Shown one piece after another: positions 3,050 through 35,477 of a DNA stretch of 40,497 nucleotides. The DNA is from Candidatus Calditenuaceae archaeon (GTDB taxonomy: Archaea; Thermoproteota; Nitrososphaeria_A; Caldarchaeales; Calditenuaceae): positions 1-40,497 of the forward strand of contig JANXEE010000012.1 in assembly GCA_025058225.1 (NCBI GenBank), written 5' to 3'. Within the stretch, counting starts at the first letter, position 1; each line of letters opens with the position of its first letter. Made by a program: the position numbers and the translations under genes. The notes under the pieces were generated by a model. It was given only the letters and a program-made list of their open reading frames with translations, ran no database searches and was not told the origin of the DNA.

Positions 3050-4525
3050 ATGAAAGTCGATTACGACGCGGTCGTGGTCGGCGGTGGGCCGGCCGGTGCC
3101 CACACAGCTATGGCCGTCTCCAAGTTCTCCGGAGGGAACCTCAGGGTGCTACTCATCGACAGGAACACCCGCGAGGAGTTCGGCAAGAAGACCAAGAGAG
3201 GATGGGCCTGCGGCGACGCGGTCAGCAAGAGGAGCCTCGACCACGTGATGAACAAGCTCGACATCAGGTACGATCGGCCGGAAATCGAGCACCACGTGGA
3301 TGGTGTTCTAGTGATCTCGCCGGACCACGAGACTGAGGTCCTCTTCGACGGCGAGGGGTATCTCCTCAACAGGAAGCTCTGGCCGCAACGGATGCTCCAC
3401 TACCTCGAGAGTCTCGGGGTAGAGGTGAAGTTCGGTGTAGACGCGAGGTCTCTGATCGCCGAGAACGGCTTCGTGAGGGGCGTCCGTTGCACGACTTCCG
3501 ACGGGAAGCCCTTCGAGGTGAGGGCGAAGGTCGTCGTGGACGCATCAGGTTCCGCATCGGTGCTCAGGGCCAACCTCCCCATAGAGTCGAAGATGGAGAG
3601 GGAGATCGACAAGGAGCAGGACATGGAGGGTACGGGCAGGTACATCCTCGAGTTCGACAGGGTGCTGGAGGATCACACGTGGTTCGACCCGAAGTTCTGC
3701 ATCATCCACCTCGACCAGTTCCTCGCACCCGGCGGCTACTGCTGGACCTTTCCCAAGGGCGAGAGCAAGGTCAACATAGGACTGGGCGTTCAGAAGGCCG
3801 CGCTGGACAGGAGAAACGAGGCCCACGGTCTCAAGGACAACCTCTCGTCGCTCATCGATCAGTATCTGAAGGCCAATCGAGCGATCGTAAACCCGAGGGC
3901 CCCTGAAGGGTACGGCGACCTCGGCAACAGCTACAGCATCTGGCAGGTTCCCGTGCGACGTCAGAACGACTGTCTCGTGGCTAACGGGTTCGTGGTGATA
4001 GGAGACGCTGCGTGGATGCCTAGGCCCATCGACGCCGGCGGCATCGGCCCCGCCCTTTACGCGTCCGTGATACTGGGGAGGGTGCTGGTCGAGGCCCTCG
4101 AGTCCAACGACACCAGCGAGTCCGGCCTCTGGAGCTACAACGTCAACTACGTCCATGAGTACGGATATCAGATGGCCAGCTTCGAGGTGTTGAGGAGGTA
4201 CCTCCAGACCCTTCCCAACGACGACATCTCCTTCGGGATGAAGCATTTCCTCTCCCAGGACGACATCGAGAGCATCAAGAGGAGGGAGCACCCCAAGTTC
4301 CCCCTGCTCACGAACTTCCTGAGGGTCTTGATGGACGGTGAGCTGCGTCGCCGCGTCAGGGAGAGGCCCAAGCTGGCCAGGAGTCTGAGCTACGTGGCCA
4401 ACAAGAGCAGGCGCCTCATCTCCCTCTACCTCGACTATCCGGAGAGCCCCGGGGGATTCGAGGGGTGGCGGAGAAGGCTGCACAAGGAGCTCCGCGAGGC
4501 CAACGAAAGGCTCGGTATCTCCTGA
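3050..4525 (+). CDS. Geranylgeranyl reductase family protein (archaeal ether-lipid saturation)
   Basis: This flavoprotein of the digeranylgeranylglycerophospholipid reductase family saturates the isoprenoid chains of archaeal membrane lipids. The N-terminal FAD motif is VVVGGGPAGAHTA. The family signature GWACGDAV follows near residue 50, and the substrate-pocket motif GGYCWTFPKG lies near residue 230. The second FAD motif GDAAWMPRPIDAGGIGPAL is near residue 320. At 491 residues it is longer than the roughly 400-residue enzymes, with a basic C-terminal extension of unknown role. The ATG at 3050 is chosen over GTG 3047 by TATA spacing. It ends 3 nt before the stop of the convergent VIT gene. 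The family is clear; the exact substrate is inferred. Confidence 0.9.
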   Translation: MKVDYDAVVVGGGPAGAHTAMAVSKFSGGNLRVLLIDRNTREEFGKKTKRGWACGDAVSKRSLDHVMNKLDIRYDRPEIEHHVDGVLVISPDHETEVLFDGEGYLLNRKLWPQRMLHYLESLGVEVKFGVDARSLIAENGFVRGVRCTTSDGKPFEVRAKVVVDASGSASVLRANLPIESKMEREIDKEQDMEGTGRYILEFDRVLEDHTWFDPKFCIIHLDQFLAPGGYCWTFPKGESKVNIGLGVQKAALDRRNEAHGLKDNLSSLIDQYLKANRAIVNPRAPEGYGDLGNSYSIWQVPVRRQNDCLVANGFVVIGDAAWMPRPIDAGGIGPALYASVILGRVLVEALESNDTSESGLWSYNVNYVHEYGYQMASFEVLRRYLQTLPNDDISFGMKHFLSQDDIESIKRREHPKFPLLTNFLRVLMDGELRRRVRERPKLARSLSYVANKSRRLISLYLDYPESPGGFEGWRRRLHKELREANERLGIS

Positions 4526-4528
4526 ACG

Positions 4529-5440
4529 CTATCGAATCGCGCCCCTTATCCCGAAAGCCGAACCTAACGCCTCTCCGAAGAGGTAGGTGGCTATGGCGGT
4601 GCCCATCAGGAGGGCCGTGTTCTCGAGCGCCTCCCTCTTGAAGCCGAGGTCCTGTACGACCGCGACGTAGTAGGTGAAGAGGGTAGCCAGGCAAACCGCG
4701 AGGGACACGGAGGCCGCGAAGGCCGTTATCATGTCGTGGGTCAGGAAATAGGGAAAGGCCAGCAGAACCGTGCTCACCATGTACGCGAGCCCGGTCACCA
4801 GTCCGGAGCTGATGGGCGTGTGCCGCAGCTCGCTCTTCGCCTTCAGGTAGGCCGCGACACCCATGGATATCGAGGCCGCGAACCCGACGATGAGCCCCGC
4901 CACCCCCGCGACCAGAGTGGAGGCCGTCACACCGAGGAACCCGGCGTGCACGCCGGTTATCTCGATGATCGAATCGGAGAGCCCGAGCGCCACGAAGCCT
5001 ATGTACTTGAGTACAGGTTCGTCGAGCTGGGACATGAGGGACTTCTCGTGAACCTCCTCGTCCCTCAGGAACTCCTCGACCTTCTCCCTGAGGTCACCGT
5101 CGAGCCTCTCCAAGACTCTCCTGTACCTGGCAACGACCTCGGACTCGTGCCTCTCGAGCAGCTTGATGACGAAGACTATTCCCATCAACTTCCTCAGGAG
5201 AAGTATGAAGAACAGCCGGAGCCTCAGCCCCCTGACCTGCGCGGCCTCTGCGTACCCGCTCCAGAACCTGTAGTGCTTGTCCTCCATCTCGGAGAGCCGC
5301 TCGAGGAGCTCCCTCCTCGGGCCGTCCCGCTCCATTCTCGCGAGCTCCCTGTAGACGACGTGGTCGAAGTACTCGTCCTTGCTGAAGAACTCGGCGTCCT
5401 CAGATATCGACTGTCTGCTGGACTTGAAGCCTCCGCTCAA
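4529..5440 (-). CDS. Ferritin-like/VIT1-CCC1 fusion (membrane iron or manganese transporter)
   Basis: The 303-residue protein has two parts. Residues 1-165 form a rubrerythrin-like four-helix bundle with iron-ligand motifs: YRE, EDKHYRFW (ExxH), a later glutamate in LLERHESE, and DEEVHEKS (second ExxH). Residues 165-300 form a VIT1/CCC1-type membrane domain with about five TM helices, including GLSDSIIEITGVHAG and FAASISMGVAAYLKAKSE. Family members export or store iron or manganese; the soluble domain probably binds metal at the membrane. The start is TTG at 5440. It lies 6 nt downstream of the small coiled-coil gene, so both are probably one transcript. Function is known at family level; the metal and direction are inferred. 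Confidence 0.88.
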   Translation of the reverse strand: MSGGFKSSRQSISEDAEFFSKDEYFDHVVYRELARMERDGPRRELLERLSEMEDKHYRFWSGYAEAAQVRGLRLRLFFILLLRKLMGIVFVIKLLERHESEVVARYRRVLERLDGDLREKVEEFLRDEEVHEKSLMSQLDEPVLKYIGFVALGLSDSIIEITGVHAGFLGVTASTLVAGVAGLIVGFAASISMGVAAYLKAKSELRHTPISSGLVTGLAYMVSTVLLAFPYFLTHDMITAFAASVSLAVCLATLFTYYVAVVQDLGFKREALENTALLMGTAIATYLFGEALGSAFGIRGAIR

Positions 5441-34526: not shown

Positions 34527-34598
34527 GGGGCCGTGGTCTAGCGGCATGACGCCGCCCTCACACGGCGGAGGTCGCCGGTTCGAGTCCGGCCGGCCCCA
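34527..34598 (+). tRNA. tRNA-Val (anticodon CAC)
   Basis: The acceptor stem is GGGGCCG/CGGCCCC with A73. The anticodon stem CCGCC/GGCGG closes the loop CTCACAC, giving CAC. The D-arm is GTCT-AGCGGCATG-AC type and the T-arm is GCCGG/CCGGC. The 72-nt gene has no intron and no encoded CCA. Confidence 0.95.
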
Positions 34599-34776
34599 CA
34601 TCTTCGGCTCGTAATCGGGTTGATCGATTCTCATACGCGACTACACGAACTGTGGTTATTAGTACACAAGGGGAGAACCGTCCGACGGACACACCTAACG
34701 TTTGACCTCCCACGACCGCCCTCTGTGAACCTCTCATACCTCTATTCGTTTCGCCTCCCGACTCCCGCGGAAAGAT

Positions 34777-34797
34777 ATTTTAGGTCGAACCTAAAAT
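34777..34797. promoter_or_regulatory. 21-bp palindromic operator over the DUF169 gene promoter
   Basis: Two perfect 9-bp arms, ATTTTAGGT and ACCTAAAAT, flank a CGA spacer. The left arm merges with the TATA-like element GATATTTTA (34774-34782), 28 nt before GTG 34806. A dimeric repressor bound here would block TBP. The AGGT/ACCT half-sites recall metal-dependent DtxR-type operators, but the spacing is not the DtxR consensus, so the regulator is unknown. Confidence 0.7.
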
Positions 34798-34805
34798 TCT
34801 CTTCC

Positions 34806-35477
34806 GTGAACCCGTACAGGGAAAAGGCTGCAGAGATCGAGCAGCTGTTGAACCTGAAGAGACCGATAGTCGCCATATCGTTCAAACAGGAGAGCGGGAA
34901 GGGGCTCAAGCGATTCGACGGGAGCGTCTCGGCGAGTTGCGTGTTCTGGACTCAGGCCCTTGACAAGTCTTTCAGTACGGTGAAGGAACAGCACCTCAAC
35001 TGCAGTATCGGTTCCGTCACCCATGGGTTCAGGAAACATGAAGAGATAGCTCCGGGAAAGGGGTGTGCCGATGTCGATTACTTCATCGATCTGGGCTGGG
35101 TCTCAGCTGAAGACATCTCGAAGCTACCGACTTACGCCCACGAGAGCAAGACGGTCTCCTACGGCCCGTTGCGTGATGTCGATTTCAAGCCTGATGCGTG
35201 CTGCATCTTCTGCAACGCCGAGCAAGCCCTGTTCCTGATGACGGCCACCCAGCACATGATAATAGGGAAACCAGCGTGTGCCGCGTTACCCGTTGCGCTC
35301 AACAACAAGACGACGGTGATAAGCTTGGGGTGCACCGCGAGCCGGACTAGGGCAGGTTACGGACCCGATGAGCTGGTGGCTTTCATCCCCGGCGAGAAGA
35401 TCGAAGAGGTGTTCAACAGCCTTCGTCGCGTCGTCAACATCGAGAGGGCTGTCGCAAAGGCCGCGAAGGGAGGATGA
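34806..35477 (+). CDS. DUF169 family protein, cysteine-rich
   Basis: The 223-residue product matches DUF169 (ArCR family): KRPIVAISF near the N-terminus, GKGCADVDYF, and the block CCIFCNAEQALFLMTATQ followed by KPACAALPVALN and LGCTASRTRAGYG. About nine cysteines are spread through the sequence, including CCIFC, which suggests metal or cluster binding, though the family function is unknown. The start GTG 34806 follows the palindromic operator and TATA box, and the sequence upstream of it in frame does not look coding. It stands alone between tRNA-Val and pdxT. Regulation by a palindrome-binding repressor is likely. Confidence 0.82.
   Translation: MNPYREKAAEIEQLLNLKRPIVAISFKQESGKGLKRFDGSVSASCVFWTQALDKSFSTVKEQHLNCSIGSVTHGFRKHEEIAPGKGCADVDYFIDLGWVSAEDISKLPTYAHESKTVSYGPLRDVDFKPDACCIFCNAEQALFLMTATQHMIIGKPACAALPVALNNKTTVISLGCTASRTRAGYGPDELVAFIPGEKIEEVFNSLRRVVNIERAVAKAAKGG

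Follow-up and report, generated by a model that had tools for sequence, protein, structure and literature searches.

The DUF169 locus and its promoter dyad

The window, by which we mean the whole 40,497-nt stretch of DNA that was analysed (contig C10 of its genome), contains a DUF169 gene whose product matches Pfam PF02596 at 82.9 bits, above the gathering score of 27. As a sequence-only reading of the window had it, the gene stands alone, between tRNA-Val(CAC) and a SNO/pdxT-like gene that begins at about 35646. The GTG start that it assigned is backed by two relatives: the ATG of the orthologue in a Calditenuaceae MAG (G002) aligns within about one residue, and the promoter and first codons are colinear in a second genome, G003. 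The features of the locus are as follows.

34527–34599, + strand: tRNA-Val(CAC), from ARAGORN; upstream neighbour of the DUF169 gene, outside the regulon
34774–34783, + strand: TATA-like A/T stretch GATATTTTAG, read from the sequence; overlaps the left half-site of the dyad
34777–34797, no strand: putative operator dyad, perfect ATTTTAGGT-CGA-ACCTAAAAT, a member of the TTTAGG-N5-CCTAAA family; matrix score 22.4
34806–35477, + strand: DUF169 gene, GTG start, 223 aa; PF02596 E-value 3.7e-23; start backed by relatives

The dyad is present as first described, with two 9-bp arms without mismatch and a 3-bp spacer; it begins 29 nt upstream of the GTG and ends about 8–9 nt upstream of it. The reading had also noticed no like dyad at another promoter, and there is indeed no second perfect one (arms of at least 9 bp, spacer of at most 8 bp) in the window. 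Because dinucleotide-shuffled windows give 0–5 perfect dyads of such size, the palindrome by itself is not significant. When the letters of the dyad are searched for at up to three mismatches, the window shuffles give 0 matches. Judged from such comparisons, the significance of the dyad is the recurrence of its letters, not its symmetry.

Copies of the dyad in the genome

Searching the genome of the window (G000, 1.17 Mb) with the dyad reveals one other place, ATTTTAGGG-ACC-CCCTAAAAT on contig C2, which is also a perfect dyad, the base changes in one arm being compensated in the other, and which stops 4 nt short of the GTG with which a DUF6512 gene begins. In pattern searches of this genome, TTTAGG-N5-CCTAAA occurs at 0–1 mismatch at exactly four sites: the DUF169 promoter, the DUF6512-SagB operon, and two tandem positions on contig C20, at and over the start codon of a gene for a 145-aa DtxR-family protein (locus L117, 4676–5110). 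At two mismatches, the number of sites equals that of the reversed-pattern control, i.e., background. On C20, the DtxR-family gene is followed by a ZnuA-type binding protein gene and then by an ABC ATPase gene (znuC), so that a zinc-type uptake transporter, the dtxR-znuA-znuC operon, is among the operator-bearing targets. All of the 0–1 mismatch sites lie at promoters and share a metal-uptake theme, a distribution that is not random. Of the earlier suggestion that DUF169 is a metal- or redox-responsive gene, the metal half is thereby favoured, and redox control is left without support. Since this genome is 73% complete, further targets may be missing.

The relation between these sites was probed using a matrix trained on dtxR/znuA sites alone, with the DUF169 and DUF6512 sites left out. 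The matrix scores 21.1–28.5 at the DUF169 promoters of four genomes (G000, G001, G002, and G010) and 19.4–21.7 at the DUF6512 promoters of five (G000, G002, G014, G017, and G029); all remaining DUF169 and DUF6512 genes score below 4. Because G014, G017, and G029 are members of a different family (f4), the link between DUF6512 and the operator is not a matter of mere close kinship. In the 259 kb of fetched sequence, every matrix site scoring at least 19 is at a dtxR/znuA, DUF169, or DUF6512 promoter. The score of 22.4 at the window site is expected by chance in a 120-bp promoter with a probability of about 2e-6 to 7e-6, and the site scores 23.3 with its own genus removed from the training set.

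Conservation of the operator across Caldarchaeales

A single-protein query with DUF169 returned nothing; an alignment query returned the loci of relatives, among them Ca. Calditenuis fumarioli (G001) and the Calditenuaceae MAG G002 (Aigarchaeota/Caldarchaeales), with both of which the genus of the window is placed. Among 61 genomes, the exact form TTTTAGGN5CCTAAAA is found only in this family, where, outside the window's own genome, it precedes DUF169 (G002 and G010), a decayed DUF169 (G003), and DUF6512 (G002). Upstream regions of DUF169 relatives, which the sequence-only reading had proposed to compare, keep the motif in G002, G010, G001, and the decayed copy of G003; several DUF169 and DUF6512 genes of relatives are without an operator site. 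In G001, the divergent dtxR and DUF169 genes have three tandem copies between them; these are located 5' of the TATA-like stretch of DUF169 and may act on dtxR alone. Between the window and G003, the operator is the same at 20 of 21 bases, with the sole change in the spacer, and the upstream region is the same at 143 of 172 (about 17% differ). The syntenic DUF169 gene of G003 (locus L023, contig C15, minus strand, about 4400–4850) has lost about 400 bp internally and is frameshifted; both arms of the operator are preserved.

Many genomes of families f1, f3, and f4 carry the shorter core TTTAGG-N5-CCTAAA at the promoter of their znu-linked dtxR gene, in 1–3 copies that usually lie over the start codon, often as two or three in tandem with a pitch of 16–17 bp. 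In genus g4, dtxR is unlinked to znu and has no site; four of the six such genomes (G006, G007, G010, and G011) carry it at znuA instead. Many further exact matches to the core occur across the order; those examined lie mostly inside genes with matrix scores below 17 and can be regarded as background. The exception is a promoter-like operator scoring 22.5 between MFS-like and luciferase-like genes in G021 (contig C15, 42093; locus L227, position 2094).

The DUF169 and DUF6512 operators lie over the T/A-rich TATA-like stretch or between it and the start codon, which is mostly 5–13 nt downstream; in G010, a second tandem operator copy intervenes before the start codon. The arrangement of TATA-like stretch and operator at the DUF169 promoter of the window also occurs at DUF6512 promoters.

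The candidate regulator and its metal

The half-sites had led the sequence-only reading to guess a DtxR-type reader, and the DtxR-family gene with the same operator at its own start, heading the znu-type operon, is very probably that reader. Its product contains the PF02742 dimerisation domain (G000:C20:62379–62579; 68.2 bits against 27), and the orthologue in G017 has PF01325 too. Invariant residues of the regulator include H80, H82, E86, C101, C120, C129, H131, H137, and C140. In the protein of the window's genome, the alignment places S, D, and A at the metal-ligand positions of the SloR E-x-x-E-H motif; because these ligand positions are lost, we do not class the regulator as a canonical Fe/Mn sensor, though it belongs to the DtxR superfamily. 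The nearest NCBIfam model to the binding protein of the C20 operon is AztC, below the cut-off, and its nearest PDB entries are YcdH and AdcA. Since the sensor is rich in Cys and His and the binding protein comes closest to zinc proteins, zinc is the best guess for the metal and the likeliest effector.

The same operator and regulator could instead respond to manganese or iron, in which case DUF169 would answer Mn/Fe limitation. Most DtxR-family proteins that have been characterised are sensors of Fe or Mn, the solved structures closest to the regulator are SloR, iron repressors, and SSO2273, and its best NCBIfam names, MntR and DtxR, point the same way from far below threshold. Against this stand the substituted SloR positions, with the invariant C101, C120, C129, H131, H137, and C140 in their stead, and the zinc-type affinities of the binding protein, and we regard an Mn or Fe effector as unlikely, though worth keeping in view. 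Much less probable is another reader altogether, such as a second DtxR paralogue or a MarR/Lrp-type protein, the likeness to the dtxR-promoter site then reflecting the descent of both from a general motif. The sister species do have another DtxR paralogue, a longer one; however, the dtxR-promoter sites and the DUF169/DUF6512 sites are alike enough for a matrix trained on one set to recognise either, the only DtxR gene detected in the window's own genome is the znu-linked one with its two sites, and the site turns up at znuA where dtxR is unlinked. It is barely credible that the dyad plays no part in regulation and is either a palindrome formed by chance or a hairpin in RNA: perfect 9-bp dyads do arise in shuffled windows, but other genomes repeat the letters themselves, not symmetry alone, at the promoters of homologues, the arms in G003 are intact despite flank divergence and a broken gene, and the sites precede the start codon and are not part of the probably leaderless mRNA.

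Proposed regulation of DUF169

In our preferred reading, the dyad is very probably the operator of the DtxR-family repressor that heads the znu genes of Caldarchaeales. The operator, its position at the promoter, its co-occurrence with regulator and transporter genes, and its conservation are seen in the sequence. A regulator dimer loaded with metal, likeliest zinc as corepressor, would occupy the dyad and cover the TATA box and the transcription start or start region, occluding TBP/TFB and keeping DUF169 off; competition of the repressor with TBP fits the geometry of the dyad. When the metal is scarce, the regulator would leave the dyad, and DUF169 would be expressed along with the regulator itself, znuA-znuC, and the operon of DUF6512, SagB, and a membrane protein. 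Metal-bound repression and release on starvation are predicted by analogy, from what is known of the DtxR family and from the uptake genes among the targets. Because the palindrome is very probably the site of the uptake-pump repressor, DUF169 and DUF6512 can be tied to the response to metal shortage, likeliest of zinc, and DUF169 would presumably serve metal-limited cells.

The closest precedent is Methanosarcina ZntR (MA0022), a DtxR/MntR-like repressor for which control of znuABC and of the repressor gene itself has been predicted (PMC2770081). Likened by the description of the regulon, the two systems share the same predicted logic, with the regulator gene and znu as targets, and differ in their accessory targets, COG0523 in Methanosarcina and DUF169 and DUF6512-SagB here. 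Archaeal genomes known by 2009 held no recognisable Fur/Zur homologues in a survey (PMC2770081). The logic of bacterial Zur regulons, in which zinc uptake and accessory genes are repressed at ample zinc, would be shared, although Zur belongs to the Fur family, which is unrelated to that of the regulator here. With DtxR/IdeR, MntR, and SloR/ScaR the regulator has in common PF01325 and PF02742, promoter-overlapping dyad operators, and the linkage to cluster-A metal uptake; it departs from them in its Cys/His-rich ligand set and the lost SloR positions. The classical DtxR box is longer than the present operator, with its TTAGG half-sites 5 bp apart.

A metallorepressor regulon in Aigarchaeota with two targets of unknown function is thus well supported by the sequence comparisons. 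As far as literature searches show, this regulon is undescribed, and the kind of system is already known. The work provides a regulatory assignment, through a metal-uptake regulon, for DUF169, a family of archaea and many bacteria, and for DUF6512, and names a candidate regulator gene, operator, and metal, in a field, archaeal zinc control, that has been little studied. A broader proposal, which we put forward tentatively and consider rather doubtful as a whole, is that DUF169 and the DUF6512-SagB-membrane protein operon form a zinc-starvation response in Aigarchaeota, read by a Cys/His zinc sensor on a DtxR fold. DUF169 would act in the cytosol, sparing zinc or handling metal, and the His-tailed membrane protein would work together with a flavoprotein exported by Tat and with a membrane partner rich in His as an unrecognised zinc-acquisition device.

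The DUF6512-SagB operon

The operon on C2 (locus L027, 9267–11233) encodes DUF6512, whose tail reads HAHHHHDH, together with a dehydrogenase of the SagB family and a multi-helix membrane protein rich in His. By eye, the SagB-family protein has an N-terminal twin-arginine-like signal. The His-rich membrane protein has no match in Pfam and might be a b-type cytochrome; taken together, the operon looks like an extracytoplasmic redox unit. The idea that DUF6512 stands in for an absent ZnuB permease was dropped, since an ABC-3 permease is encoded in the same genome at C32:24155. Among DUF6512 genes, the His tail is weakly associated with the operator, with species that are not independent (Fisher p=0.09; about 0.04 by hand, with the same dependence, when the decayed G027 copy is added). 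That copy, an apparently internally deleted second DUF6512 ending in ...LELFRDPLTGRYGLEAGHHHH, is preceded by an operator (locus L012, contig C6, 819–985) and lies directly 5' of a SagB-like gene; the copy before it is intact and lacks both the operator and the His tail.

The DUF169 protein and its other contexts

The CCIFC stretch of DUF169, which had been offered as an argument for metal, is not conserved in relatives and was abandoned as a metal site; among the cysteines of the protein, C66, C158, and C176 are conserved and C45 is almost invariant. The predicted structure is confident (pLDDT 94.9). Foldseek returns no match to this model at E-values of at most 0.001, the best TM-score being below 0.3, so that the weak matches suggesting likeness to PLP lyases are meaningless, and the sequence has no match among those of solved structures. 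The operator-linked DUF169 genes do not form one clade: they are scattered in the tree and require three changes. A single regulated lineage is thus unsupported, and several gains or losses are called for, which suggests repeated recruitment or loss. A second DUF169 paralogue in the same genome (G000:C30:10273–10848, locus L040) is 49% identical and has no operator.

In the literature, DUF169 appears incidentally, in SepRS clusters (PMC8762117), as a neighbour of TauE in Desulfovibrio (PMC4001038), and in the YedE selenium context (PMC5322559). In an Anaerolineae locus (L165, 2533–3714 and flanks), a Fur-family regulator gene lies immediately 5' of DUF169, with genes for an ArsP-type permease and a NicO-type membrane protein on the flanks; the Fur-family gene would be a second, independent tie of DUF169 to metal control. 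In Nitrospirales (L166, L168, L169, L175, L178, L190, and L215), the gene after DUF169 encodes a B12-binding radical SAM protein and the next one an ATP-grasp ligase, a neighbourhood that suggests a biosynthetic role of DUF169 in bacteria.
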